Assembly: GCA_032433595.1 (NCBI GenBank)
Contig: JASWJB010000246.1
Span: forward strand, 1-64,000
Direction of reading: 5' to 3'
Length of the DNA stretch: 64,000 nucleotides
Source of the DNA: Conoideocrella luteorostrata
Lineage: Eukaryota > Ascomycota > Sordariomycetes > Hypocreales > Clavicipitaceae
Shown: piece after piece, positions 8,307 through 48,964 of the stretch
Layout of the letters: each line of letters begins with the position of its first letter
Numbering within the stretch: the first letter of the stretch is position 1
The notes under the pieces: model-generated
The model's input: the letters and a program-made list of their open reading frames with translations, nothing else
Database searches by the model: none
Told to the model about the DNA's origin: nothing
Position numbers and translations under genes: made by a program

Positions 8307-10502
8307 ATGAGTTCAACATCGAACCATGGTATGTTCATCTCATAGTGTAGTTTAGAATGGGCTACTACTGACATGTGGTATTTAGATCCCATTGAATGGA
8401 TTCGATGGGCACCGGGCTCTCTGAGTCTTGATTTCTTGATAGACGCTGACCGTCATATTTATCTTTGTCATATCCGTCCGACTGGGTCGAAGTCCATCGT
8501 TTACGGCATAAACAAAGAGGTTGAGCATGCACTGCCTTTAACACAGATCAGACTTCTCGGAGAAGGATCCATATTTGGCACATCGGAGCGTCAAGTCTAC
8601 AGTGCTACAAGCAGCCGTCTAGTCTACGTGAGCCATCAGGAGTTACCTACGGACGATGATACATGTATACTGGAGATCTTGACGCGAGACCCATTGACCA
8701 AGATTGAAATCTTGAACAGGTACACTGTCTTTGGTGAAGTCCCTGTTGTCCGCAGTACAGCCACTGTCACGAATCTCGGCTCGAAAGAGGTCTATTTAGA
8801 GACCTTTGCTTCGCTGTCGCTTGGATACCTGAACCGTGGCTCTGAGCAGTGGTACAACGACTTCCAGGTTGTCGTTGCGAATAGTACCAACTTCCGCGAG
8901 GCCCAATGGAAGGCATTCAACTTTCCTGACATCGGTATGGACTGGGTAGGAGAGAGCGATTTCGACAAACCTGGCACGAGAGCTTCCATCTCTAAAAGTA
9001 ACCTGGGAACGTTCTCCTCATCCGGCTCACTCCCCATGGGCGCGCTCGTGAAGAAGGATGGCACGAGCTCCGTTGCCTGGCAAATCGAATCCAGTGGATC
9101 TTGGCAGTGGGAGCTTGGCAACATCGTTTCCGGACTTTATGTGGTCGCCGGCGGGCCCAACGACCAGAACCACCAATGGACCAAGAAACTCAGCCCACAA
9201 GAGACATTCACAAGTGTCACAACCGCTTTGACAGTCACCAACGGCCCGTTACCGTCTGTATTCCCGCCCCTGACGCAATATCGCAGACGAATCCGTCGAA
9301 AGCATGCTGACAATGAAAACCTACCGCTCATTTTCAACGATTATATGAATTGTCTAAAGGGCGATCCTACGACCGAAAAAGTCACCGCGCTGATTGGGCC
9401 AGCACTCCGCTGCGGAGCAGAGTACTTCGTCATTGACGCCGGGTGGTACGCCGAAGAGCCAGGTTGGTGGGATACGGTTGGTGAATGGAAGCCTTCGACA
9501 GCTCGTTTCCCTGGTGGACTCAAGACACTGCTCAAAGAAATCCGCAACAAGGGCATGATCCCCGGCCTGTGGATGGAGCCGGAAGTCGTAGGCGTCATGA
9601 GCCCTACAGTCAACGAGCTACCCCCAGAAGCCTTCTTCCAGCGCCGAGGGGTTCGCGTTGTCGAACAGAGTCGTTACCAGATGGACTTCCGCCATGAGGC
9701 AGTCGTCTCTCGTCTTAACGCTATCATCGACGACCTTGTCGAAAATTACCATGTAGGCTATTTCAAGCTGGACTATAACATTGACGTTACCCACGGCACG
9801 GACGTAGATGCATCCAGCCCGGGTGACGGTATGCTGGGTCATCGTCGTGCATATATGTCGTGGATCAACTCGGTTTACGATCGCTACCCAGACGTCGTTC
9901 TGGAGACTTGCTCCAGTGGTGCTTGCAGGCTTGACTACGAGATGCTGTCAACTCATTCTATCCAGTCGACTAGCGATCTTCAAGACCCGATTCTATACGC
10001 TGGCCTTGCAGCAGGTGTACCCACCGCCGTTACGCCTGAGCAAAGTGCTTCCTGGTCGTATCCTCAGCCTCACTACACTGACGATCTCAATGCCTACTGT
10101 ATGGTCAATAGCATCCTAGGCCGAGTCCATCTAAGTGGTCGCATTGATCTATTGAGCCACAATCAGCTACAATTGATCATTGAGGGTTGCGAGGTATACA
10201 AGCAGATCCGGCATCATATAAAGGATTCGGTGCCTCTCTGGCCACTGGGCCTCGACCAGTGGAATGAGGATTGGGTTGTTCTGGGCCTTCAGACTGGGAA
10301 ACACCTTTATTTAGGAATTTGGAGGCGAGGTGGCGATGCGATGCTTCGAGTCCCTCTTCCGGACATCGTGAAAGACAACGCTTTGGTGCAAACGTTATAT
10401 CCCAGGGCCTGGGAGACCAGCCTTGAGTTGTGTGGACGGGAATTGAACGTAACTATCCCGGGTTCGCCATCAGCTCGATTGATACATATTAAGTTCCTTT
10501 AA
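8307..10502 (+). CDS. GH36 alpha-galactosidase
   Basis: Two exons, 8307-8328 and 8386-10502, 712 aa. A tiny first exon (MSSTSNH plus one base) is followed by a 57-nt intron with GTATGT, ACTGAC and TTTAG. I prefer this to the in-frame ATG at 8373, which lies inside the intron. The protein has the beta-sandwich N-domain and TIM barrel of GH36. The barrel shows 'FVIDAGWY', the WMEPEVVG stretch, FKLDYN with the nucleophile Asp at about 470, CSSGACRLDYE, and QSTSDLQDP with the acid/base Asp at about 538. It removes terminal alpha-1,6-galactose from melibiose and raffinose-family sugars. There is no signal peptide, so it should act inside the cell on imported sugar, consistent with the divergent transporter. 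Length matches bacterial-type GH36 enzymes of about 730 aa. Confidence 0.93.
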
Positions 10503-12186: not shown

Positions 12187-13686
12187 CTACTCCACAACAC
12201 GATCTACCCATGTCATCCAGCACTGATCCGAGCACAACTTGGCCATAGACATGGCATCTAGCGTGACGAGAATCTCATACTTCTTGCTACACTGTCTGCC
12301 CGGTAGGATTAACCCCGCACTCATGTTCCAAACAGGTTGGGCCCTGCGCACCGCATCGGGGCAGACGCTGCCATCAGCATCACGAGCCTCCTCGTCTCCA
12401 ATCACGCCTGGGAGATTCCACCGCGTGTCCGCGCCAAGATGTCGCCACGAGTTGATGATGAAATCGTGCGGATCAAGGGGATCATGATCAACGCCTATCA
12501 TGCGGGGATCTGGCGCCGCACGGATCATAGCCGTGCGTGTAGCAACGAAATCATCTGTGATGCTGGCGAGAGCGACTTCGATCAAGTGCACGACTTTGGC
12601 GAACGCTCTTCCCGTGGCTGGTGTCACTTCTTGAGACAGTCTTGCAGTGACTAGGTTGCTGAGCTCGACTTGTAGGTTGACCATGGCGACTGTGTTGCCG
12701 TTGGCGTTGGTGTTGCTTGTGGAGTCGTGAATCAGCTTGGTGAACGCCCGCCGTGCCCACGACGCATTCAATAGCAAGCGTGCAGATTTTTCCATGGAAA
12801 CCGTCTGTGCGACCTCGCGGCGGCTGATAATCACAGACACCCAAGTAAGTGCTGTGAGACAGGCGAAAGTGGAAGGGCGAATGTATACATCGTTATCGAT
12901 GAGGGGGTGGTATTTCGTGGCGGTTTCTTTCAGCAGCTCGATGCTGTCCGCATTGAATACGAAAATTCGGCCTTCCTTAGTGATTGATTCGAACGGTACT
13001 TCGCTCGGACTGAAATTAAAGGTAAGCGGGCCACTGTATTTTGGCGCTATCCAGTATTCCGGACATTGTTCCATCAAATGCTCAAAAGAATTCTGGTCAG
13101 TGGGTGCAGATGTGATATCGTCGGGCAACTCGAAATGCTTTTTGATGCTGGCATCTCTCAGATGATAGACAGAATAGTCCGGGAGAAGAGTATAGCGTGC
13201 AAATCTGGACATGAAATTGTTCATGCCCATACCATCGGTTGTAGAGTGGTGAACATAAACGCAAAGCATCAAGCCGCCGCTGATGATGCGAGCATGGACC
13301 TTGACGACCGGAATTTTGGAGCGGTCCGTCCAGGAGTGCTCGAGGTCAAAGGAGGGACCAACAAAAGCTTGTGCTGGAAATCCTTTTGCCTTGAGCTCTG
13401 CATAGTCAAATGGGAAAGTTTTGGAATGATCAACGACCTCAAGGACGGGCTCATCATGTGCTTGCTTTAAGATGGCGAGATGACCGGGTTTCCCCTCTAG
13501 GCCGACCTTTCCAGCAAAGTCTGGCAGCTCAACGCAGGTACGATCAAGAGCCACTCTAAGAGCATTGTAGAGAGGTTGGAGAGCACCACACTGAGCGGGC
13601 TGGTAAGGAAAACAATATACTTGACGGATGTACTGACGCGGAGCGATCTGGTCCCAAGTGGACAGGGGCACGGCGGACTCGGCCAT
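12187..13686 (-). CDS. BAHD/transferase-family O-acyltransferase
   Basis: Single exon, 499 aa, starting at the ATG complement at 13684-13686. The HxxxD catalytic motif is clear: VHHSTTDGMGM, with His147 and Asp151. The second family motif, usually DFGWG, appears to be the degenerate DTRWNLPG after the conserved FIINSWRHL at about residue 415. Together these place it in PF02458-like fungal acyltransferases, which include the trichothecene 3-O-acetyltransferase (TRI101-type) group. It would use an acyl-CoA to acylate a hydroxyl or amine on a small molecule; the substrate cannot be read. There is no signal peptide, so it is likely cytosolic. No backbone synthase lies next to it, so it looks like a stand-alone tailoring or detoxifying enzyme. 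Confidence 0.85.
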   Translation of the reverse strand: MAESAVPLSTWDQIAPRQYIRQVYCFPYQPAQCGALQPLYNALRVALDRTCVELPDFAGKVGLEGKPGHLAILKQAHDEPVLEVVDHSKTFPFDYAELKAKGFPAQAFVGPSFDLEHSWTDRSKIPVVKVHARIISGGLMLCVYVHHSTTDGMGMNNFMSRFARYTLLPDYSVYHLRDASIKKHFELPDDITSAPTDQNSFEHLMEQCPEYWIAPKYSGPLTFNFSPSEVPFESITKEGRIFVFNADSIELLKETATKYHPLIDNDVYIRPSTFACLTALTWVSVIISRREVAQTVSMEKSARLLLNASWARRAFTKLIHDSTSNTNANGNTVAMVNLQVELSNLVTARLSQEVTPATGRAFAKVVHLIEVALASITDDFVATRTAMIRAAPDPRMIGVDHDPLDPHDFIINSWRHLGADTRWNLPGVIGDEEARDADGSVCPDAVRRAQPVWNMSAGLILPGRQCSKKYEILVTLDAMSMAKLCSDQCWMTWVDRVVE

Positions 13687-14887
13687 GGCGAAGAAAGAAT
13701 GGCCAAACCTGAAGCCTGACGGGGTGTTTTCACAGAAACGAAATGACCCAGTGAGAATTTACCGAATCTTCACGTAAAAAGCCGGGGTGAAGATGGTGAT
13801 AAAGGGAAGAACATCCTGCTAATCCATGAGCAAAGGAGCCCGACATTTAAGCAGAGCTGCTGCGGGAGCCGCACTGTCAGGGGCGGCTGAACAATCTGAA
13901 AATCTGTGAACCGCAGCACCCGTGAAACGAAAGCTGGAATCGTGATCATGAGATCCAGCCCAATGACGCGACGGATGAGTTAGGACGAGACGGAATTTAG
14001 ATTGTCACAGCCAAACCGGTGAGGCGGTCATTGGCCCGAGCGTCACTCACGCTGGACACCATCGTTCGTCGACCGCGCTGGTCAGTCACACAAGAGCCCA
14101 TGCTGGCGGACATATTCGTAGGGAGGGTCAATGGAGATGCTTGGATGGACACTAGACAATCTAAAAGTCGCTTACAATACGTGATGGGATAGTTAGGTAT
14201 CGCCACTCCAAAACTGGGCGGCATTCAGTTCACCGCCACCGATGCCGCCAAGGCAAAGCTAACTTGGGAGGCGCCGGCCCGGTTCCGCGACCCGGTTCCC
14301 CGGTAAAGCAACAAAGGGACAGTCGGAGACTGTAGACGAGGTCGGTCGGTTGTGCGAGCGGAGAGAAGGTCGACCGGTCGACCTGGGGATGTGCGTCATC
14401 GGCTGATTCGCGTGCTAACTTTTTTTTTTTTGGTGGCTATAACGTTAGGTCGAGGCTACGGCCGCCGATTGCAATGGGCTAGGACAAGGCTTTTCGGAGC
14501 GAGCCTTGTCCTCATTCGTCCGAGACGACAATGACAGCTGTGCTGTATTTCAAGGACTGGCCTGTTCGGCTGCCGCCTGCCGTGGAACAGTACTTCTGCA
14601 GTCCAGCAAACGAGACACCCATACTTCTTCCGGCCTTGACGTGTCGTCTTGCGAAGCGCCGATCCTCATGCTGCCTGCCAAGAAAGCAAACAGAGCAATA
14701 CACCTGGGGGGAGGTTTATGGCACGACGGAGCAATACGGTTCGTGGCGCTGTGCAGTCCATAATCTATTGCTTAGCGACACCTGTGTCTCTCTTATTCTA
14801 ACCTGGAAGTTTGATGACAGGCAATGCGACTCAGACGTTGACGCCGTGTACATGCTCTCACCCGCATGCTAGACACATAACGTCTAT
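13687..14887. other. Intergenic: acyltransferase promoter and carrier 3' region
   Basis: Promoter side of the acyltransferase (13687 onward) and 3' UTR of the carrier gene. Contains a 12-nt poly-T at about 14420. Overlapping short frames at 14506-14872 occur on both strands and show no motif. Confidence 0.5.
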
Positions 14888-30043: not shown

Positions 30044-31601
30044 TGTTGATACGAGTCGGCGCATGCAAGTCCCGCCTATGGTCTATGATACAAAGACTCA
30101 ACTCTGTGCATTTGCAGGTCTAAAGCAGGTTGACGTTGGTGTGGTAAGTTTCTCCGATTCTGGAGATGGAGCGCTCCACCTCAAGCCCTGATTGGTTGAT
30201 GGCGACACATACAGTAGCAGATGCAGTGAGGAGCAGGAGCGGATTCCGGAGTGCACGAAAGTCTCGAATACCACCTCCGCCCATGCCATGCGCCCCGAGA
30301 GAAAAAAAATTGTTATTGCCTCTGTGGTTTCCGTGATAATGCGCTATTGCTGGTGCAGGTAGGGGGCAATTGGGCGAGCGGGACATGAGCATTGAACCGT
30401 GGTCCGAATTCCCATTGTGGTAGAGAAATTATCGCAGCCTTGGGAACGGAAAATCCTGCATGTTACATATCTTTCTTCTTACTCGATCGAGCGCTTTATA
30501 TAGCATTCTGATGCCAAAGTCCGGGCTACCGAGCCCCGGAGAAGACCGCGGCGCTCGAGGGCGAATTCCCGAAACAAGGCGTGCATTTTGTTGGTGGGGA
30601 CACGACCGGTCGTGATATGAAGATCGTAGAACTCGATGAGGTCATCTAATCAATTCTTTGCGTGCATTATTCAAGAGTTGTTGCATCCGCTGTTAAAGTA
30701 AGAGAGACATGTTGTCGCTGCTGCTACTATCCAGAACAATACACAGCCCACATCTGGATAGCGTATCGTAGCTTAGTGAATCTCGATGATTCTATCAGAT
30801 CACTGCACTCTGAAGATATCCTGCATATCCCGGGGTCGGAGATGCATTCATCACAGTAACTATCACTACACCTTGCCGTTCTTTACATGATACTATTAGA
30901 TATCGCATCCGCTGTTACGTGAACCAGAAAACAGGGTTTCTATCTCGATAAGCAGAGTGAGTAGTATCGGGGCCTCATTTTATTACCTTGTTGCTACCTC
31001 TACTTAATTTGTGGATGTTTCTTTCTCATAGTCGACTCGGCGGTCAAAGGGCTCGCCGGACAATCACAGCCGGAGGACTCCTTTGAGATTCTTGGACTGT
31101 TGTTCCTGCGTAGTATGGACAAATGCTAACCAGATTATAGTACTATATTTATTGATACGCTAGCCAAAAACTATTTCGTAGAAGCGCAGCATCATAGAAA
31201 ATACTATTCACTACCGTATGTTGGTTCTCCGTCATAGTTACCAGCAGAGTTTTTGTTGGAATCCTGCCGCCAAGCACACAATAAGAGCCGGAGCGAGTCA
31301 CGTGGTCACCTTTCGGCCACCCTATTTATACGAGCATCTTGAGCCTCGTATCCTGACTTGTATTTCCCCTCTTAGAAAGACAGAGATTATTATTGAATAT
31401 ATTGTATTTTGATGCATTTGATCTAGATCAACTTGCACAGCACCCCTGTGCAACCCACAGTTTTAGCTTCCCAGGATGCGGAGGCCGAATAAACGTATGA
31501 TTGCATGCCGAGCTACACGTACGGTCTCAGTCCATCGCATCTGCCCATGAAATCGACCATAAGCCTTACCTTTTTCCCCCAGGAATCTTCGTAACATCTA
31601 C
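30044..31601. other. Intergenic at the start of the accessory region
   Basis: Contains the promoter of the HAD gene and the solo LTR at 31254-31459. No gene is supported; short frames at 30662 and 31218 are motif-free, the latter lying partly inside the LTR. Confidence 0.5.
31254..31459 (+). mobile_element. Solo LTR, family B, copy 1
   Basis: A 206-bp element starting TGTTGGAATCC and ending CCCACA (TG...CA), flanked by the 5-bp direct repeat GTTTT at 31249-31253 and 31460-31464. It aligns along its length with 48760-48964 in reverse. It contains a CACGTG box, a TATTTATA-like box at about 31323, GATCTAGATC and a terminal hairpin TTGCACAG/CTGTGCAA. TGTTGGAAT is a common Ty1/copia LTR start. 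No internal retrotransposon genes remain, so it is a solo LTR. Confidence 0.85.
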
Positions 31602-31939
31602 CTATGACTCGCAGTAGCAGTTCCTAGGCCTTCTATCAGCATTCAAAACCATTCGAGACCCCCACCGTCACTTACCGCAGGAGAAAGTCACCGCAGTGAC
31701 CCTTCTTATAGCCGTGCTTGCGACACTGTGAGTTATATTAGCGAATAGCCCGCAGGCCAAATAGACACCCCACTGACGCAATTCCAGCAGACGTTGATGT
31801 TGCCTGGGCAGCCCTGCCAGCCTCCTTTGCATCCGCCGTTATCCTTGCGAACCAAGGTGCTTCCCTCGGTGCCCACAGCTGCTGCCATTGCAGAGGACGC
31901 AAGAGTCGCCAGAGTGAGAAGAGAGTATGTGGGCTTCGT
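31602..31939 (-). CDS. Defensin-like (CS-alpha-beta) secreted cysteine-rich peptide; start position is ACG
   Basis: Three exons on the minus strand: 31939-31778, 31725-31676 and 31623-31602, about 77 aa, too short for ordinary ORF calling. Both introns are 52 nt. Intron 1 starts GTCAGT and ends CACAG. Intron 2 starts GTAAGT, has GCTGAT and ends CCTAG; an AG 14 nt earlier also keeps frame. Residues about 1-20 form a signal peptide (core YSLLTLATLASSAMAAA). The mature part has 8 Cys spaced C-x6-C-x6-C-x2-CC-x9-C-x7-C-x-C. It carries all three marks of the CS-alpha-beta fold: CxxxC, GxC (in GYKKGHC, close to plectasin's GYKGGYC) and CxC near the end. The codon where Met is expected is ACG, and no ATG with the signal peptide is in frame. 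It is therefore a recently inactivated gene or uses a near-cognate start. A TAAATATA box lies about 70 nt upstream. Likely role: antimicrobial (inference). Confidence 0.72.
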
Positions 31940-33608
31940 TGTGCTGCTCTGTATCGTGTCACTGTCCGATATTGGTAGTAGCGGTGGATTCGAGGGCTTT
32001 TCATAGTATATTTAGACATCATAAGTGGTACGAAAACACCGAGCCATTAGACCGAGTAGAAGCTCAGAAGATTCAGCATTAGCAAGTGTAGTAATAATGC
32101 ATGTAATTCAACCAGCTCGGATTGCTGGAAGAGTGCTGTATTTCCGCTATACGACCGTTACGAAGGCAGCGCAGAGCCACCAGATCACCACAAAACTCGG
32201 TTGCCCCGCAATTACTTAACCATATCAAGAAAGTCTATTTTTCTCAATGTCCGACCTGGATGATGACCAATATAGTGGCCCTTTTTGTCGTATGGGTCGG
32301 GATGCAATCCAAAGCGGTAGAAATAAAAGGGGTGGGGGTGCTAATGTCTCATATATCACTTATCCGGGCCGGTCAGACGAGAACTTAAAGGCTTTTTTTT
32401 TTTAATAATAATTACACCGACTCCGGTTATTCAGTTTCATCACTTGACAAGCATAGGATTTGCTGAAACAACCTTGCAAAGGTAGCAGATATGAAAAACA
32501 TCCATTTTGCCGGCTTGCGGACTCAACACTCGCGGCCGGAATTGGTGCCTGGAATCGCTTGCAACTAAGCTGCCGTCGAGCTAAAAAAAAAAAAAAAAGG
32601 TATCTTTGCTCTTATTGAGCAGACTTTCTACAAGATTCTCGTGTCTTACATCTCGGTATACCTGCCACAGCGAAGTTAAACCTATGTGGCCAGACCCACC
32701 ACGTAAGCTCCGTTGCATGCCAAAACGTACCACGGTCCGCAAAACGCCAGCCCGAAATACGAGATCGCGAGATACGTGAGCTGTACGCCCTGAAATACGT
32801 AAGCCAGATGTAGGAGAGCCCGAAATACGGCAGCAATACGCCATCGCCAGATAACTAAGACGCATAAGGATCGTTCGACGATCGCCAATTCCCCACTTCC
32901 GACAGACTGCAAAATGTTCTGTGAGTATTAATGTTTGTTGTTAGACACTTGCTTCTGCATGCTAAGAAACAATGAAGGCAGCTGTAATTAAAGTCTATTT
33001 CGCGTTATCTTGGCATTGCGTTGGCGTAGGACGATACCGAAACGCAAGCTGCTTATTTCCACCTTGCGACGACAAATATTAATCCTTACTCCAGATCTCG
33101 TCACCAAAATCCCGTGGCTGTGCTAGAATGGAGGAGGGCAAGCTTAACTACACATAAGTTTGGGCCTGCAAATCGGTTGATCTTGAGTGCAACCCCTACC
33201 GGATGATGATACTTACCTCTGAAGTTCATCTCCGTGCTAAGCGGCAGGTGCTGATTGCAACAAAAGATACAATTCTATCACTCATTATATTAACTTCCAG
33301 GCTCCGGTCCTGTGGATACTCTCGCGGTCACCCAGAATGGGCAGTTTAATGAGATGTGCGGCAAGCAGTGTCGCGATTCCTCGGACGCAACGAATAGAGA
33401 AACTACTATGCCCGCCCCATATTGTTTCAATGGTAGAAGACCCGCGTTATGTTACAAATGGACCAAATAAGATCCCACCAAGCTTGGTACATAAATATAT
33501 CGCGTGGCAAGGGAAATGAATACTTTTAACGGGTAGACACTGATTACTCTGCTAATGATAGTTATATAGCCGTACCGTCCTAGCTTAACACAAGATATAT
33601 AAGTCTAG
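31940..33608. other. Intergenic with poly-A/T tracts and a short motif array
   Basis: No gene is supported. It holds the presumed defensin-like promoter, a 13-nt poly-T at about 32390, a poly-A at about 32583, and at 32730-32840 a spaced array of CGTATTTCGGGCT-like words (minus strand). Short frames over the array are products of the repetition. Confidence 0.45.
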
Positions 33609-34826
33609 TTACTTGACCTTCATACTTGCAGCTATTAATCTAAAATAACACTTGTCGTATTGTACAATCGGACACTTCGTTATTTCGCTAAAGGGTCTGT
33701 CGCAGCATGGCACAGGATTTTTCCCCACGTTGCGTACTGTGAACCGCAGGTTAAGGTAAGCGTTCTTTGCTTTAGCGTCAAGCGAAGTTGGCCCGAAGCT
33801 ATCCCAAACTGTGACGTGTGTAATCTCCTTATTCCCTAACTGCATTTTATGTTGTATGAGAAGATAGGCTGCTCCGGCCCCATGAGGCGTTCCAAGAATA
33901 GCCTTGCCTTCGGGGGTCGACATAGGAATGGTAATCCGATTCTTCCAAGATGGAATTTTTTTGCGTCCTCTTAACTCCACTGCATCCGCAACGACGTCAT
34001 AAGTATTCTGATTAACTATGTGAGCTCGGAAGATGTATTTAAGGGAGGACTTCTTCACGCCGGTTAATCGGCAGGCGTTGGCCCATTGAAAATAAACTAT
34101 GTCAGACCAGTTCTTCAGCGATGGAAGCTCTTTTGGTTTCAGGTTTGGGGATTGGCTGCTGGGACTGAAGTTAAAATCCGCTATAATCGCCCCGGATTTA
34201 GGATTCATGACGTTCGAGTAGACCGCCTTGGTTGCCTTGACACCAGGCGCAGTAAGTGTAAGCCATTGGAGCGGTACCATGGAAAGCATGGGTAATTAAC
34301 TTACATATCTGGGAGTTCCATCAATCTTATAACAGTTAATGTGCTTGTCGGTGTATAGCATCTCGGTGTTTTTCGAAATCATGGCGTCTTTGTCCTTGAA
34401 TGCAGCGTCCAGGTTATTTTTGTAGTACGGCTTAATATTCTTTCTATTAAACCACCCCTTCCACCCCCATTTTGGAAGTGATGTACTCTTTACCCAAGGA
34501 CTTGCTAGTCTTAGCTTGTCCCTAAATGAGGTTTTGCGGAAGGCACGCTTAAGCTCATCCCCTTTCTTTATGCACTCTTTCCAGGTTCTGTACTTCTCAG
34601 CTCTGTTGTTAAGGCCTGAAGTGGAAGCTCTATTACGAGAGCCGGTTGGAGCGGGTCGCGGCGGCGGACAAGCCGCTTTGCTATCTACTCGTGTTGTGCT
34701 AATAGCAGTCGTAGGTTTGGCGACGCAGCCGACAAGTACTAGTTGCGCGAATATGAAGAGTAATATAAAAACCCTAGCAAGTCCGGCTGGGCGCCTGCCC
34801 GTGGGTGACTGACGAGGTTCGGCCAT
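33609..34826 (-). CDS. Predicted secreted protein of unknown function
   Basis: Two exons on the minus strand, 34826-34305 and 34235-33609, 382 aa. The intron has a perfect GTAAGT donor; the acceptor is placed at 34236 (GTCAAG), keeping frame, although a second AG six bases on would also work. The N-terminus is basic, then strongly hydrophobic (ARVFILLFIFAQLVLVGC), a signal peptide or an anchor. After a Pro/Ser/Arg-rich linker comes a Lys- and Trp-rich region (SLPKWGWKGWFNRKN). The second exon has a beta-rich look with TVWDSFGP, PVPCCDRPF and a final CYFRLIAAS. Cysteines are few and clustered. I do not recognise a family. Its place in a repeat-rich, gene-poor stretch fits a lineage-specific secreted or effector-like protein (inference). 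Confidence 0.65.
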
Positions 34827-37081
34827 GACGAAAATTTAACGAGAACACACAGTAGTGTACAATAACTAATGTTTGAAAGAGTGTAGGCCGCGCGGTGACT
34901 GAATACTTTTTTTTTTTTCGTTGACAACTTCGGAGCTCTTTCTTCGGGCAAGCTGCTATTTTATACATCACAAATAATGTCGCGTCAGGTCGAACCGTTG
35001 GCCGTCGGCAACATCCGCAGTATTGTTGGGCTTGTCTCCGCTAGCAAGATAGCGGCTCGCAAAGACCCCTGGTATCCCGAGGCTAGTTTGCAGACCAGTA
35101 GGTTGAGTGATCCATCATGTGGACTGATGTGATAGTTTTTTTTTAGACAAGATTGGGATCGCCCGCTCGCCCCATGAGTTGCTGCTCCCTTTGCCGCATC
35201 CACTTGTACGCTTTCCCAGCAATTGGTAATACTTTTACTTCTTCTGAGCCGCTTGGTGCTATTCTTTTACAAGCACTCTGCCGAAATATTTGGAAGATCT
35301 TACAGAAGAAAATTTCACTAAATATGTGACCATATTCAGCCCTCTGCAGCGAAGAGCGAAAAGATAGAGACGCACACAAAGACTCTTTGCTTCTTTACAA
35401 ATACATGTAAACTAAAGTCACCTGCTTAATACTACCGAGTGTGTGAATATCTTTGGCAGTCATATGATGGGATGGAGATTATTTTTATTTGCATGGCAAG
35501 TTGAACTGAATCGAGAACGATTTAAATGAAATGGTAGAAGGCTTGAGAGCTAGCTAATTGCTAAGAGAATTACTACACTACTACAGGAAACTTTACCAAG
35601 AAACAGAAAATATCTACTATATGGATAGATAACTAGCGGGTAAAGCTCGTGTGAAATTAAAAAATTACTCTCTAGAACCCTGCATAGTTGAACGCACCAT
35701 GTTAGGAGATTTAGAGAACCAGTGCTAGCGGGTCCTGTTTTCAAGCATGTGGGTTAACGCAAGAAGCCGCACGGCATCTACCGCCTGCGGAGCTCGTGGA
35801 GTCGTTTGAGTTGAAGGGAAAACCCGACGAAGCCGGCCCGGCAACTCAATGAATGGGGGGGGGGAATACAGGTAGAACTGCATTTCAGAGTGGATCATAC
35901 GATCAGAACTATTCTCGTCCCGCATAATTACGAATTATTGGTGGCGTAAATGACGGTCCGCCCCATGACTAAAGACTTCGAGCCACGGTTGATGCCAAAA
36001 TTTGTGTCCTTGTGCATTGGAACGGGCTGATATCCGGCCCTAGCTGAATCGTCATGCTTGCAGCATTATATCCCGCACGGCCCGAGGTCGGCCCTCTCTC
36101 ACCGTTGCAAATTTCCGATTGAGTATTGACGTTGTACTATCCATTCACTCATCTTATTTTCGTAGCCTAATTCGCGGAATTTAGGCTACCCAACTGTATC
36201 GGCTCCACTTTGAACTTTGGGGCTTCATTTCCTCTTATACTCTTGCATCGTAGAGCCCTGCAGGTAGCAACTTGTCGCTTGCCGCGCCTCAATGTTTCGT
36301 AATCGGACAGCACTTCAAGGTAAAACGCTACACCGTTGAATGTACAGCATTGTTGCTCCATTGCAGGTGCTTCACGACCCGGAATATGATGCTGAGACAG
36401 GAGACATGGCTATTTCTGCCAGATAAAGCTTCTTCTCTATTGCTAATGCTCGAAACGGCAAAAGACGAGCGTTGCTATCGCCGACGCCGGTGATCGGCAT
36501 AAAACTTACACAATTGACGACCAAATACTTCACTGACGCGGGCGGATCTTGAAGCAATCCAGGACAAGGGCTGACGGACATCCAACTCAAAACATTAGAT
36601 TAAATACAAATAGTAGCTAGCAGAAAGCTAAACAATTGATAGGTGGTATTGATAATCCTTGACGATTGTGACTGGCAGGGTTTGGTGCATTTCATGCAAA
36701 TGGACCGTGTGTCTGCGTCATAGAAAACGAACCCAAGTTGGAGCACGGAGTATGGATACCTACCATTTACATAGACCAATGGCGCCGAGGGAAGCGTGCT
36801 CTCTGGCAAGCCTTTGATGTCATCGACCTTTGGCTAAATTGGGCGAGCGGACGCGGGCAGCTTCGCGTCGACAAGCGGCCGAGAGGCGGCGCCAAAGAGC
36901 CCCACTGCGGACTTAACGGCCGAGAAGTATCGATCGTAGCGCCTGTGTAAGCGTCGACCAAATATTAATTTAAACATTCCTAAATCCGGCACAATGAACT
37001 ATCTTCTTCTTTCCGTATATTCACTGAAAATTCAGACATAATTTCTCACTTCAATACTTCGTAGCCACAACCCACGTCTTC
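34827..37081. other. Intergenic, no supported gene
   Basis: About 2.3 kb with short conflicting frames only. Contains a 12-nt poly-T at 34908, an 8-nt G run near 35856 and AT-rich stretches at 35400-35700. The right end is the promoter of the dehydrogenase at 37082. Confidence 0.45.
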
Positions 37082-38095: not shown

Positions 38096-39485
38096 TCAGT
38101 CTATCTTGCGCTGTGGAAAAATCTCTGCAACACGGCGCCATTCTTCCGGGATAGCAATGCGGCCTGACTGGGATAATAGATCTAAGACGTGATTTCCCCG
38201 ACCAACAGGCACGGCATGCTTGAATACCTCCTCTGTGATCGTAATTTCGTGTCCTCGTCCTTCAAGAATCAAGCCTAGCGTATTATTGCTGTAGCAACTA
38301 CCCGTGGCAGCTATTACTACCTCTTCCGTGATTATAATTTCGTGTCCTCGACGGTCGAAAAGGAACGACATAACCTCTTTGCCACTGATTTTATTGCCTA
38401 CGGCAGCTTTCAACATATCCTCTATAATAGTACTCTGGTATCCTTTTTTGCCGAGAAGGAATCCAATAGCTTCCGCACCTTGACTTTCGTTTTGCGCCGC
38501 AGCCACTAGTACTTCTTTAGTGACGCTGATGTCTTGAGCTCTTTTTTCAAATAAAAGAGCCAGGGTTTTTACATCACAGCGCGCTGCAATTATTTTTGGC
38601 ACCCGTTCGGTGATAGGAATGTCTTAGCCTCGCTTCGTAATTAGAATTGATATTATCTTCGCTCCAAAACTGGATGTAATGATATCAATCATATCTGCCG
38701 TGACTGTTAAGTCATGATGTCGATGCTCTAAAAACAGTTCAATAATTTTATCATTATTCCATTTTTGTAGTGCGTATTTTAGTATCAGCGAAGTGACTTT
38801 GATGTCCTCCTTTGAATCTAGGAGAGTTTTCATCATTTTATAATGATGACTTCTCGCCGCAACCGTCTCTTCTGGAAAATCTATCCTATATTTATGCAGC
38901 AGCAGTTCAAGGACTTTTTCGCCGCTCGTATCGCTCTGTGCCGGTGATGTCACCAAATCTGGGGTGACTGTAAACTCATTTTGCTTCGGATGTCCCATAT
39001 TATTTATTAGTTACTGCCACTGCTATTAATTCAGGATTCGCCACGGCGTGATGATTCTCCAACAATGGGTCCACAATCTCCCGGTCAAAGTGTTGGACAA
39101 CTGCACAGATGGCGCCATCGCTAAAATGAGTATCCCCATTTTTGATTAGGCTTTTGAAGGATTCCCGGTTTGTGTAGCTAGTCCGGTCACGGCGACGATG
39201 CTATATCGAAATAGAGATATCAAGCTTGATTGTCCAACCTATAGCTTTTCTGAAGCGGGTGAGCGTCCGGCGAGAGAGAATGAAAACTTGCTCCACGGCA
39301 ACATTTTCTTCCGGAATAGCAAGAGGAGTAAAGCTAAAGAAATCCAAGTGGACCCTTAAACAGTCGGCTGAAGAGCCAATTTCGCGCTTGATGGCCCTCT
39401 CTAACTCTTCCACTGCCGGACTGATTTTGAATGTGACAGTGGCCACCCAGGACTGCGACGACATACTGGACGCCGCAGTTGGCGT
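38096..39485 (-). pseudogene. Broken repeat-domain gene (NLR-tail or ankyrin-like repeats)
   Basis: Minus-strand coding remnant, read from about 39485 down to a stop at 38096. It is interrupted by an in-frame TAG at 39201, a TAA and a frameshift near 39000, and another TAA at 38624. The downstream part consists of units of about 40 residues with the pattern L..LL..RGHEI.ITEEV..AA..N..SG (for example DRRGHEIIITEEVVIAA and EGRGHEITITEEVFKHA). I recall such units from C-terminal parts of fungal STAND/NLR-like proteins, but no nucleotide-binding domain is visible here. Intact ORFs persist on both sides of each break with the same repeat pattern, so the decay is fairly recent. It lies head-to-head with the HET-ankyrin gene across a degenerate LTR. 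Confidence 0.7.
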
Positions 39486-40606
39486 ATACGACTAGCCAAG
39501 GGCGTTTGGCTCATCCGCAGTCTCCAAATGTGCGATCTTGCTAGGTAGGCAACGCAAAATATTGGAAGCAAAATAAGAAGCAGAGCAATTCAATTCATCT
39601 GATCTGGGCTATCTTAAGAGAAGAAGAGGAAGAGGAAATGCCCCCGAGCGCGCCGTATAAATGAGGTGCTAGGGTGGCCACGTGACCTTGTCCGCAATTG
39701 CTCAAACGCTTGACGAAGGATTCCAACAAATAACACACCAGCTCCGAGATCTGTGTACTGCATGCTTCCGCGGCCAGCCAGCTTACTCAAGGACAGTACT
39801 CCGTACTCTGTATGCAAAAAGATGTCAGCACCTTGGGCCAAACGCGCCTGTAACTGCGGAGGCGTCCGGATCCAGCCTAGGTACTCCGTATTACTCCGTA
39901 GGTCGTTCCACACGCCAACCGTAACTGAAACTCCGTGAGAATGGTTCACGGAAGTGCAACGTTGTGCTTACCAACATCTTCATTCACAAAGACAGTGAGT
40001 GGATGAGAGAACTGGAGACCAAAATCCAGTCCATCGGTAAATGCCGCCTCCTTTCATACTACTCTGTGGAACTAATCAATCCTCCCTCTCAAGAGAATTT
40101 ACCAGGTGCATGGCAGAGCATGACAGAAAGCCAACGGCTTGGAGGGGAAAGAACAAACGGATATCAGTGCGCACGGCGAGCATTTCATGCGGGCTGCCAC
40201 ACGGCTGGACGCCTGGGTACAGGCGACACCCCTGTAGCTGACGTGTCATTGGCGAAAGACACTCTGGGCGGGCGATTGGTGTGATGGCAACCCCACCCCT
40301 TCACGTAGTATGGACTCGGACGCAGTGAGGCTGTCATCTTGTTCGTCCGTCAATAATCGCAGAGAGCTGCAACTTGCCAGTGGATGAGTTCCTGCGAGCG
40401 GAATAAGGAGTCCGTCCAATCGCTGATTGAAACCTGGCGGGCCGTTTAGGTGCCTGACCCAAACTTCAGCTGAGCTTGAAGGCAGAAAGCAAGACTGCCC
40501 GGCGCAAATAAATGCGGTACATTTATCAAGGGCATAGAGACCATCACTTCCTCGACCTGCGCGGGCACGCGACGCATCCCCTCTCCCAGAAGGGCTGTAG
40601 CCAAGT
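39486..40606. other. Intergenic between repeat pseudogene and HET gene
   Basis: Holds a degenerate family-B LTR and three TACTCCGTA motifs (39797, 39882, 39892). Short frames at 39614-40641 are on both strands and motif-free. The right end is the HET gene promoter. Confidence 0.5.
39577..39728 (-). mobile_element. Degenerate LTR, family B, copy 3
   Basis: On the minus strand it starts TGTTGGAATCC like copy 1. It shares the CACGTG-GCCACCCTA block, a TTTATAC box and the pyrimidine-rich TCTTAAGA region. The far end does not match CCCACA and no target duplication is seen, so it is older or truncated; the left boundary is approximate. It sits about 100 bp upstream of the broken repeat gene, where it could have served as that gene's promoter. 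Confidence 0.5.
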
Positions 40607-43600
40607 ATGTGGCTTGTGCATACATCGACGCTTGAGATCATCAGAAAACGTGATGATGATATTCCGCCCTACGCCATCTTGTCCCATACATGGGGTTCCG
40701 ATGAAGAAGAAGTCACTCTGCAAGAGATGGAAAATGAATATGAAAACCACGGCCCTTACATTAGCACGTGCAATGGGCACCAACGCCGGATCACGCGAAA
40801 GCCAGGCTTTGTTAAGATTCAGCGTGCGGCGCAACAAGCCGTCATGGATGGATTCGACTTTATATGGGTTGATACCTGCTGTATCGACAAGACTTCGAGC
40901 TCCGAACTGTCTGAGGCCATCAACAGCATGTTTCGCTGGTACCGTGAGTCCGCTGTCTGTTACGCCTTCTTGAGCGACGTCGATGACCCGGGGATTTCCA
41001 ATACTTCGTCTGAGAAAACCATTCAAGCCATTGCCAATAGTCGTTGGTTTACTCGGGGATGGACACTGCAGGAGTTGATCTCACCCACAATCGTTAACTT
41101 CTATTCAAAAAACTGGGAGCCTCTTGGTCAGAAGCACAATTCTTTGCTGGAGGTTATTTCTAAAACCACTGGAATCAGTGCAGCTATTTTGAATGGCACA
41201 CAAGACCTGTACGAGTGCGCTGTGGCAACTCGGATGCAGTGGGCCTCTCAGCGGCGAACAACTCGGATTGAAGATGAAGCGTACTGCCTTATGGGACTTT
41301 TCGACGTGAATATGCCGCTACTCTACGGTGAGGGCCGCAAGGCATTTATCCGGCTCCAGGAAGAGATTCTTAAGCGTATGTTGATATCCAAACTACTTCA
41401 GATTCGTTCTGACCGCAGAGAATTCAGAAACCGACGACGAGTCATTATTCCTGTGGAAGTGCCCTCAAGATGACCCCTTCCGCTATCAGCTATCTGGTTT
41501 CCTAGCTAGAAGTCCGCTGTGGTTTAGGGATTCGGGACACTTCATGCCACTTCCCAGAAACACGTCAGAGGATAGTAAACCTTCAGCAGTGACCAACGCT
41601 GGGCTATACATCTGCCTCAATCTCGTATCACCAACCTCATCAATGCATATCAAACCCGGAGATAATGCAAGTGGTGGTGACAAATTTCTCACTGCCCTCA
41701 TGCATTGTAATTTCTATCGTCAACGCAGTATTGAAGATGATAAGGCTTACAAACCCGCGCTCGAGTTACGCCATCTTGGAGGTGACAGATACGCCCGAGT
41801 ACGGCCTGATCGCATCCTATCTGTAGATGGGAAAAGTCCAAGCTGTCGCAAATATCTCTATGTGAGGCAGAATGTAACATTACATGCTGCTCAGGTTGTT
41901 GTGGATGACCATGAGCTTTCGGAAAGCCGACAAAGATCTCGACCCTTATCATTGGTTTGGAAAGACGACAAGGTTCATTGGGATCAAGCCACCCAAACCT
42001 TATATACCACACGTGGGTGTCGTGGGTTTCTTGCACGTTTCAGGTACCATTTGAAATGCTCTGACTTGGCGTCCTGGTCGGTGGACGTTGTTCTGATATT
42101 GGTAGCTGAGACGAGCGCGTACCGGGATACGGAATGGTGTTGTTTTCAGGAAGATGCCACAAAAGAAAACCAGGGAACCCTGCCAACTCTGCCTACTTCT
42201 GGATGGACAGGCGCGTCCCACGAGTATAGAGGTGTGCTTTCTAGTGTGGTGCCTGATGCACACAACGTCTCGTCCAACAGATTTACGCTCCGACTCGCCC
42301 AAACCGGGTGGTTTATGATTTCGAAGAATTGTATTTTTGCGTCATGTCCAAATCAGGAACAGAAACATAGCTTCATCGAAGCATGGGTACCTGATGTGAC
42401 CAAGCCGGATACACTAGATATAGACATCGAGGACTCGTGCATTCGTTACGTTGAAGTTGGTCCAGATCCTTTGGCAAGAATGAGGCGAGAGATAGAGAAC
42501 ACCTTGGATATTGGGAGAAAGCCTGTGGTTATATCTAAAGACACACGGGTTCTTAAGCATCTCGTCAGAGCTCACCTCGCACAGGATTATTCACGCCTGG
42601 AGCAGGAAACATTTCGAGCAGAGATCAAATCAGTGGGAAGAGAATTACTCGGGCTGTCGATCAATCACGACTGGGTCATTTCTGTTAGCCCACTGGCATT
42701 CGCAGCCTTGCTAGGAAACGACACGCTGCTGCAGAAACTTCTGTCATATAATGTGGAGCATGATCCATCTGCACGAAACCCGTACTTATTCTCCAGGAGG
42801 TGGCTTCCGGGGAAGCAAATGTCAGATGGCTTTACAGTAGTTCATCTCGCTGCCATGCTAGGGCATAGTAGTGTTCTGAGGACTCTTCTCGAGTATTTTG
42901 ACCTTCCTCAGAAGATATTTAATCTGAAAATAGACTCACCTATGCATTTCGCGGCAGCCTATGTACGTTCCCAGACGGTGCGAGAGACGTTTGACTGCTT
43001 CGAGGACGTTGTCAAGAGGTTCAACCCGAATGCTGAATCGCCCTGGATCAACAGAATTCTCAATAAAAACAGAGAGTCTCTACTCCATAGAGCAGCACAA
43101 ATGAACAATCATCACGCTGTAAGTGCAATTCTATCCCACCTGAGAAGTGGAAAAGATGTGGATTGCCGTGATGTAAACCAAAGGACCCCTCTCTGGCACG
43201 CCGCCGTTACCGGATCCCACGATACATTGAAGCAACTCCTAGCGCATGGTGCCGATATCGAAGCAAGAGACAAATTCCATACTACTGTTCTACAGACTGC
43301 TTGTCGATCGTCTCTGTCTTTAGATGTGGTTGAAACCCTGTTGCAATCCGGGGCAGATCCCAACGGCTGCACCGTCATCAAAACTGGCTACGATCCGGCC
43401 CCTTATCATTGCGCAACTCCCTGCACGTACGCAGTTGTCAAAGGAAACGCAGACGTATTGCGAGCTCTTCTGAGAGCGGGAGCGAAACCGGATGGGCTGT
43501 ACCCGACTGATATGCACCCTTTACACATTGCCGTCATGGAAAGGAATCTCGAGTTCGTCAAAGTGCTTAAGGAATCGGGCTGTGATCTCGAACCACGGAC

Positions 43601-43778
43601 GCCGTATAGAATTTGGTTTCCCAAGAATTTGAGAGATGTGACCGGGCCTTTGCGATCCGTATCTGGTAAGGGACTGACGCCAGAACACTTGGGCACGGAC
43701 AAGTTTAACAAGCTATGGATCGACGGATATAAACGTTCCAAAATTGTCGAGCAGTTCAACCCACAGCTACATTATTGA
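40607..43778 (+). CDS. HET-domain protein with C-terminal ankyrin repeats
   Basis: Two exons, 40607-41375 and 41419-43778, 1042 aa. The intron is only 43 nt, with GTATGT, TTCTGAC and CGCAG; removing it joins EEILK to QNSETDDESLFLW in frame. The N-terminus MWLVHTSTLEI, then PYAILSHTWG, followed by FIWVDTCCIDK, SMFRWYRESAVCYAFLSDV and RGWTLQELISP, is a full HET domain (PF06985 type, residues about 20-165), closest in style to HET-E/HET-D. YCLMGLFDVNMPLLYGEG follows. The middle (about 260-670) is beta-rich without a named domain. Residues about 680-1010 carry ankyrin repeats (DGFTVVHLAAMLGHSSVL, RTPLWHAAVTGSHDTL, MHPLHIAVMERNLEFV). HET domains trigger cell death after non-self fusion. No NACHT domain is present, so ankyrin repeats are the likely sensor (inference). 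Confidence 0.93.
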
Positions 43779-48759: not shown

Positions 48760-48964
48760 TGTGGGTTGCACAGGGTTGTGCAACAGATGATCTAGATCAA
48801 CTGCTTCAAAATAGAATATATTCAATAGGTCAAGTAGGTTATCTAAGAAGGGAAAACAAGTCAAGCTATGATGCCCACGACACCCGTATAAATAGGGTGG
48901 CCGAAAGGTGACCACGTGACGATATCCGTGCTCTTGTTGTGTGCTTGGCGGCGATATTCCAACA
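48760..48964 (-). mobile_element. Solo LTR, family B, copy 2
   Basis: A 205-bp element, read on the minus strand as TGTTGGAATATCG ... AACCCACA. Perfect target duplications GTTAT stand at 48755-48759 and 48965-48969. Its terminal hairpin GTTGCACA/TGTGCAAC (48765-48784) and GATCTAGATC are shared with copy 1. It has the same CACGTG and TATA-like boxes in the same order. Confidence 0.9.

Follow-up and report, generated by a model that had tools for sequence, protein, structure and literature searches.

A heliomicin-like defensin gene with two extra cysteines, apparently unannotated, in the insect-killing fungus Conoideocrella luteorostrata

Does a chain of three short exons on the minus strand of a contig (JASWJB010000246.1) of Conoideocrella luteorostrata (Hypocreales, Clavicipitaceae) belong to a genuine defensin gene, and, if so, of what kind, in what condition, and of what origin? 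We examined this locus (31602-31939) within the first 64,000 nucleotides of the contig, which are referred to here as the window. A sequence-only reading had proposed a hidden gene at this position, and rebuilding the chain in frame reproduced the exons, the two 52-nt introns, and the junctions that it had claimed, with good donor, branch, and acceptor sites. On the minus strand, exon 1 (31778-31939; 162 nt) begins with ACG; it encodes a signal-like segment followed by a short pro-segment and by the N-terminus of the mature peptide, which holds cysteines 1-4. Intron 1 (31726-31777; 52 nt; GTCAGT...GCTAAT...CACAG) then interrupts the CxxxC motif in phase 0 between cysteines 4 and 5. Exon 2 (31676-31725, minus strand; 50 nt; CRKHGYKKGHCGDFLLR) supplies the end of the helix motif and GxC, intron 2 (31624-31675, minus strand; 52 nt; GTAAGT...GCTGAT...CCTAG) interrupts the c-loop in phase 2, separating cysteines 6 and 7, and exon 3 (31602-31623, minus strand; 22 nt) encodes NCYCES, with the CxC motif, and the stop codon TAG. 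The CTRAY branch motif starts 16 nt from the intron end in both introns (counted by eye), and the joined frame is open for 77 codons before TAG. The spliced product contains eight cysteines in the spacing that had been claimed, C-x6-C-x6-C-x2-CC-x9-C-x7-C-x-C, together with the CxxxC, GxC, and CxC marks, and it shows the cis-defensin (CS-alpha-beta) framework C...CxxxC...GxC...CxC. Its mature part comprises about 45 aa with a charge of +3, and the signal-like segment is of moderate hydropathy (13-residue maximum 1.71). Fractional G+C is 0.573 in the exons, 0.50 in the introns, and 0.456 and 0.458 in the flanks (49% for the window), and exon GC3 is 0.68, compared to 0.57 and 0.53 in two neighboring genes. 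The exon chain 31939-31778, 31725-31676, 31623-31602 is real, and the defensin-like CS-alpha-beta peptide predicted from its splicing is well supported.

Assembly of this pattern by chance had been judged very unlikely, and our counts agree. When three-exon chains are built permissively (GTNNG donors, YAG acceptors, intron lengths of 46-80 nt), the window yields 1594 open chains (plus strand, 705; minus strand, 889), only one of which, the present gene, contains a CS-alpha-beta core, while 200 dinucleotide-shuffled windows, with a mean of 1921 open chains each, contain none. Stricter rules that include the branch motif leave four open chains in the window, one with the core, and 30 shuffles gave no core at all. 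Because we defined the core pattern with the peptide already before us, the similarity tests weigh more than these chain counts. When an ARD1 fragment was compared with the six-frame window using tblastn, which allows no freedom of splicing, the best match was to exon 2 (34.3 bits, E 9.3e-7), with 61% identity over 18 aa at 31734-31681, the first three of these 18 residues lying in intron 1. The fragment's next match in the window reaches only 21.6 bits, and none of 200 shuffled windows gave more than 24.6 bits. The fragment also aligns in place with exon 3 at 31622-31605, where its 16.9 bits are not significant alone, and a heliomicin fragment in the same control gave a shuffled-window maximum of 25.8 bits.

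Comparison of the 45-aa mature part with PDB chains using phmmer gave ARD1 (E 1.3e-5, 5e-5, and 6.8e-5) and heliomicin (E 1.2e-4 and 9.6e-4) as the closest solved peptides. Up to E 10, 17 sequences matched, the other 12 being weaker than ARD1 and heliomicin; these include the antibacterial peptide 8gxt (0.018) and plant, scorpion, fungal (micasin, 0.38), and arthropod defensins (0.053 to 1), and plectasin is not among the 17. The sea anemone toxins Neurotoxin I and Toxin CgNa, listed among the 12 at E 0.014 to 0.046, match the N-terminal half of the mature part only (E 0.007-0.052 when the profile search is included). The likeness to plectasin on which the sequence-only reading had drawn, comparing GYKKGHC with GYKGGYC (the plectasin segment being taken here as quoted in that reading), is consequently not the best comparison, because ARD1 and heliomicin share GYK-GHCG and the exact spacing CxxxC-x9-C-x7-C-x-C. 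Plectasin-type (ancient invertebrate-type) defensins have the CS-alpha-beta marks and a GYK-G segment in common with the fungal peptide, but the latter has two extra cysteines. Heliomicin (Heliothis virescens) and ARD1 (Archaeoprepona demophon) additionally share the NC-aromatic-CE ending, and from CxxxC to the end of the peptide the alignment is gapless, with 14/27 identities to heliomicin and 15/27 to ARD1. The similarity to these solved cis-defensins extends beyond the cysteines: with the cysteines fixed and all other residues shuffled, none of 200,000 sequences reached the ARD1 score and two of 200,000 reached that of heliomicin.

We compiled relatives with a profile built from the fungal peptide together with ARD1 and heliomicin pieces, obtaining 24 proteins from 26 candidates; because the profile included those pieces, its E-values are not used as evidence for the fungal peptide. 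In gapped comparison of the whole mature part, five of the 24 heliomicin-type proteins have z values between 4.6 and 7.4; shuffled sequences equaled the observed score in 0/3000 cases for heliomicin, P0002, and P0017, in 1/3000 for P0020, and in 2/3000 for P0024. Moreover, hhalign against 11 of the 24, in an alignment that left out the fungal peptide itself, reports 97.5% probability and 42% identity over 43 columns. This alignment places fungal C1, C3, and C5 on the first three cysteines of the heliomicin-type proteins, which leaves C2 and C4 as the additional two. The pattern CxxxC-x9-C-x7-C-x-C is present in full in 23 of the 24 relatives (one is truncated) and is identical in the fungal peptide, whereas the n-loop differs, being x10 in heliomicin and ARD1 and in 23 of the 24 relatives, x7 in one, and x13 with a cysteine inside in the fungal peptide, measured from C1 to the first helix cysteine. 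Exactly six cysteines follow from the first core cysteine in 23 of the 24, the truncated protein having five, and none of them has the extra pair. The fungal peptide thus differs from heliomicin and ARD1 in its two additional cysteines, one in the n-loop and one in the helix, and in having two introns in the mature region, and given the eight cysteines and the x13 n-loop it is better described as a heliomicin-like variant than as a plain member of the heliomicin/ARD1 group. The suggestion of a new subfamily is reasonable insofar as a variant is meant, since the array differs from all 24 heliomicin-type proteins, but the subfamily rests on one sequence. A real heliomicin-like fungal defensin gene with two extra cysteines, apparently unannotated, is present, and we consider it very probable that 31602-31939 is a genuine member of the defensin family.

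In Pfam, the spliced product is below every cut-off, the only family to appear being Gamma-thionin (12.4 and 14.6 bits, compared to a cut-off of 25.1), and Toxin_3 is not listed for it. Heliomicin (P0003) itself misses its own four Pfam cut-offs, so that the Pfam gathering score separates poorly; Toxin_3 is passed by two of six heliomicin-type proteins. The NCBIfam actinodefensin family was considered and rejected (E 0.049; 14.2 bits, compared to a cut-off of 65). The spliced precursor, when searched against about 5.8 billion proteins, gave two candidates, neither of which scored, and hence no annotated copy or close relative was found in that collection. Tiny spliced genes are easily missed by automatic annotation, and fungal defensins are probably under-counted as a result. 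Source names are available for 13 of the 24 heliomicin-type relatives, and none of the 13 is fungal. We take the named proteins to be from two tardigrades, from Lepidoptera (heliomicin and three others), and from Bemisia tabaci, Chrysoperla carnea, and Cotesia (two each). The remaining one is labeled Salmonella and lies on a 308-base contig, and it is probably contamination. Because the list was seeded with ARD1 and heliomicin words, it leans to arthropods, and fungal relatives may well exist outside it. The search for homologues that the sequence-only reading had called for therefore yielded relatives with the six core cysteines, none of them found in a fungal genome. Searches of bacterial and archaeal genomes (16 pattern matches) and of viral contigs (27 pattern matches) gave no relatives. 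In the literature on fungal defensins, as represented by titles and abstract openings with few subscription journals, no fungal heliomicin-type peptide and no such eight-cysteine array is mentioned, and a 2016 review, in the portion available, states that heliomicin was then known from Lepidoptera only (PMC4874388).

We also searched the fungus's own genome (an assembly of 46.4 Mb in 620 contigs; the available text of the genome paper gives 47.39 Mb, 864 scaffolds, and 49% G+C for its Illumina assembly, PMC12352038). The mature peptide matched only this locus, through its two larger exons, and no second copy was found. The DNA pattern for GYK-x-GHCG occurs at this locus and, with one mismatch, at one other place, and the reversed control gave one match. 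A search with heliomicin alone missed even this locus, and its negative result is therefore uninformative. Profile searches of the same genome with Defensin_2 and Gamma-thionin likewise did not report this locus.

The first codon used is ACG (31939-31937), and no in-frame ATG precedes the signal-like segment back to the previous stop, though the frame stays open; the sole in-frame ATG (31886-31888, minus strand) falls inside that segment. A signal-like segment is present where a signal sequence had been claimed, but the missing start had been overlooked, and an ATG followed by a signal peptide, as looked for in a gene for a secreted peptide, is not found. A mechanical search for an upstream first exon (ATG at most 450 nt from the acceptor, exon at most 90 nt) returned 14 options, none with a +5 G donor and none with CTRAY near the acceptor; the shortest have an ATG at 32223 right before a GTTAAG donor, and one of these has a 272-nt intron. 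ACG is a usable near-cognate start in yeast. The gene may accordingly have a non-AUG start, a lost start, or an unseen first exon, and it is mainly the missing ATG that places its present function in doubt. One alternative, that this is a recent pseudogene or start-lost allele, a once-whole defensin gene from which no peptide is now made while the rest is intact, would account for the absent ATG and agrees with the absence of a second copy in the genome, with the dispersed repeat about 140 bp downstream, and with the loss of initiation codons described, in the part of PMC5234102 consulted, for some Zymoseptoria defensin genes. There is no other lesion, however, in that stops and frameshifts are absent and both introns and all eight cysteines are intact, and a near-cognate start or an unseen first exon would explain the missing ATG as well. 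We regard such loss as possible, though the less probable outcome, and lean modestly toward a gene that still makes its peptide. On the sequence evidence, the locus is probably a gene, whole or very recently damaged, that is present in a single copy, has apparently escaped annotation, and encodes a secreted heliomicin/ARD1-type CS-alpha-beta defensin.

If the peptide is made, exon 1 would contribute the signal-like segment, the short pro-segment, and the n-loop, and exons 2 and 3 the remaining helix motif and the two strands, giving a secreted mature peptide of about 45 aa. Three canonical disulfides (C1-C6, C3-C7, and C5-C8) would be expected, and a fourth, C2-C4, would connect the n-loop to the helix. 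Fourth disulfides have been described at the termini, in the mollusc/nematode pattern, and in macins, and the text of PMC5116183 that deals with fourth bonds mentions no pair made up of an n-loop cysteine and another within CxxxC. Fungal defensin families 4 and 5 and most of family 3 have cysteine patterns of their own according to the same text, whereas family 2 has the six-cysteine insect spacing and lacks the extra pair of the fungal peptide (PMC5116183). An n-loop-to-helix fourth disulfide would represent a different stabilization of a scaffold that is studied for antibiotics. By family, the peptide would act outside the cell against competing microbes on the insect cadaver, and we hold with moderate confidence that it would most likely be antifungal, acting through glucosylceramide of the fungal membrane as described for heliomicin, for whose action this lipid is important (PMC8074791, as excerpted). 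We put the chances of an antimicrobial function at about even, given that the peptide is made. A role in regulating the fungus's own growth or signaling, which some fungal defensins of the classical insect type have been proposed to play, seems doubtful: the sections of PMC5234102 available describe fungal defensins without antibacterial activity, one of the peptides that lost it being linked to fungal fitness, but the mature part here is cationic (+3) and retains the GYK-GHCG stretch found in heliomicin, which is antifungal. Such a peptide in an insect-killing fungus would raise the question of how the fungus tolerates a relative of an insect antifungal peptide.

The introns bear on the origin of the gene. 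As far as the consulted text of PMC4165938 goes, all fDEF8 genes, three fDEF2 genes, and the micasin-type genes have two introns, in phase 0 in the helix and in phase 2 in the c-loop; two of these three fDEF2 genes belong to species of Clavicipitaceae, Pochonia chlamydosporia and Periglandula ipomoeae (family as given in PMC12352038, in part). The present gene has the same arrangement, its phase-0 intron falling within CxxxC and its phase-2 intron in the c-loop, a structure like that described for fDEF2/fDEF8 genes (pochlasin1, perisin, lecasin, and the dermatophyte peptides) and micasin. Agreement in both position and phase supports the gene model and a fungal history independently of sequence similarity, and it favors a fungal rather than an insect origin. 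Elsewhere among fungal defensin genes there is a single intron, no intron, or, in Zymoseptoria, introns at other positions (PMC4165938 and PMC5234102, both in part), and the agreement is thus with one subset only. The shared positions may also reflect convergent gain, which has been raised for amphioxus (PMC4165938, in part).

Horizontal transfer from an arthropod, possibly the hemipteran host, with the peptide serving to combat microbes or to imitate an immune peptide of the host, is in our estimate very unlikely. Among the relatives found, the closest are heliomicin-type peptides of tardigrades and of insects, the whitefly Bemisia tabaci being one of the latter, and fungi are lacking among the 13 source-named of the 24, but this is a list seeded toward arthropods, and the extra cysteine pair is absent from all 24. 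The known host of Conoideocrella luteorostrata belongs, we presume, to a scale family other than the soft scales. This fungus infects elongate hemlock scale and lives on Hemiptera (PMC12352038, in part), which counts in favor of transfer, yet a survey of soft scale insects reports, in its accessible text, no defensin (PMC11084805), and two introns in the mature region at fungal-type positions and phases contrast with the 5' bias of invertebrate defensin introns (PMC4165938, in part). Returning to a gene of fungal origin, fungal intron phases in the gene of a heliomicin-like peptide would link the fungal defensins to an antifungal family known mainly from insects. A whole fungal branch of heliomicin/ARD1 defensins, with its own n-loop-to-helix fourth disulfide and fungal introns, is an improbable extension at present. 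If kin of the gene were widespread in insect-associated Clavicipitaceae, horizontal transfer of fungal genes could be the source of the heliomicin peptides that occur patchily in Lepidoptera, whiteflies, lacewings, parasitoid wasps, tardigrades, and ciliates; alternatively, the fungus could mimic an antifungal peptide of insects. The ciliate peptides, LsAMP-1 and LsAMP-2 from Laurentiella, are also heliomicin/ARD1 relatives outside the arthropods, but they have the six core cysteines and, at a reported 64 and 76% identity, are much closer to heliomicin than is the fungal peptide (PMC10040121, in part). The weakest explanation, that cysteine codons were brought together by chance across false introns, could appeal to the lack of a transcript, an ATG, and an exact homologue, but is opposed by the chain counts, the ARD1-fragment shuffles, the fixed-cysteine and gapped shuffles, and the hhalign profile match, and can be set aside as exceedingly improbable.

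Profile searches of the genome gave five matches for Defensin_2, two of them over the cut-off, and six for Gamma-thionin, none over. One clear second defensin gene (L006; Defensin_2 over cut-off) lies on contig C2 around 375227-375301 on the minus strand. It consists of a single open frame of 214 codons that needs no intron and encodes two CS-alpha-beta domains of eight cysteines each with a spacer between them, a layout resembling that described for manisin-type two-defensin precursors. Its N-domain also has an n-loop cysteine, and 13 residues likewise separate C1 from the first helix cysteine, but there is no similarity to the spliced defensin beyond the cysteines (z -0.1 and 0.6), and the other extra cysteines are placed elsewhere. 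A further locus (L007) is just over the Defensin_2 cut-off, but it contains an in-frame stop with no clear defensin gene around it and was rejected; L008-L010 were examined as translations only.

Several other features of the window were recorded. The dispersed repeat downstream of the defensin stop (31253-31460; about 206 bp) has at least 46 matches in the fungus's own genome, itself included, with 40 of 608 first-look candidates scored, and the window holds another copy, of 81% identity, at 48760-48964; no Rfam family matches the repeat at the gathering threshold, and it resembles a short mobile element that this genome carries in high copy number. Two adjoining ORFs beside the defensin gene (33609-34835, minus strand; 228 and 179 aa) have no Pfam match at E 0.001. 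An alpha-galactosidase gene lies at 8346-10499, and an acyltransferase-like ORF at 12187-13758 has an N-terminal domain resembling trichothecene 3-O-acetyltransferase in Pfam. At 38096-43778, a HET-domain ORF precedes a large ORF with ankyrin repeats, and DUF7104 repeats lie nearby on the other strand (Pfam); this is possibly a locus of the heterokaryon-incompatibility type.
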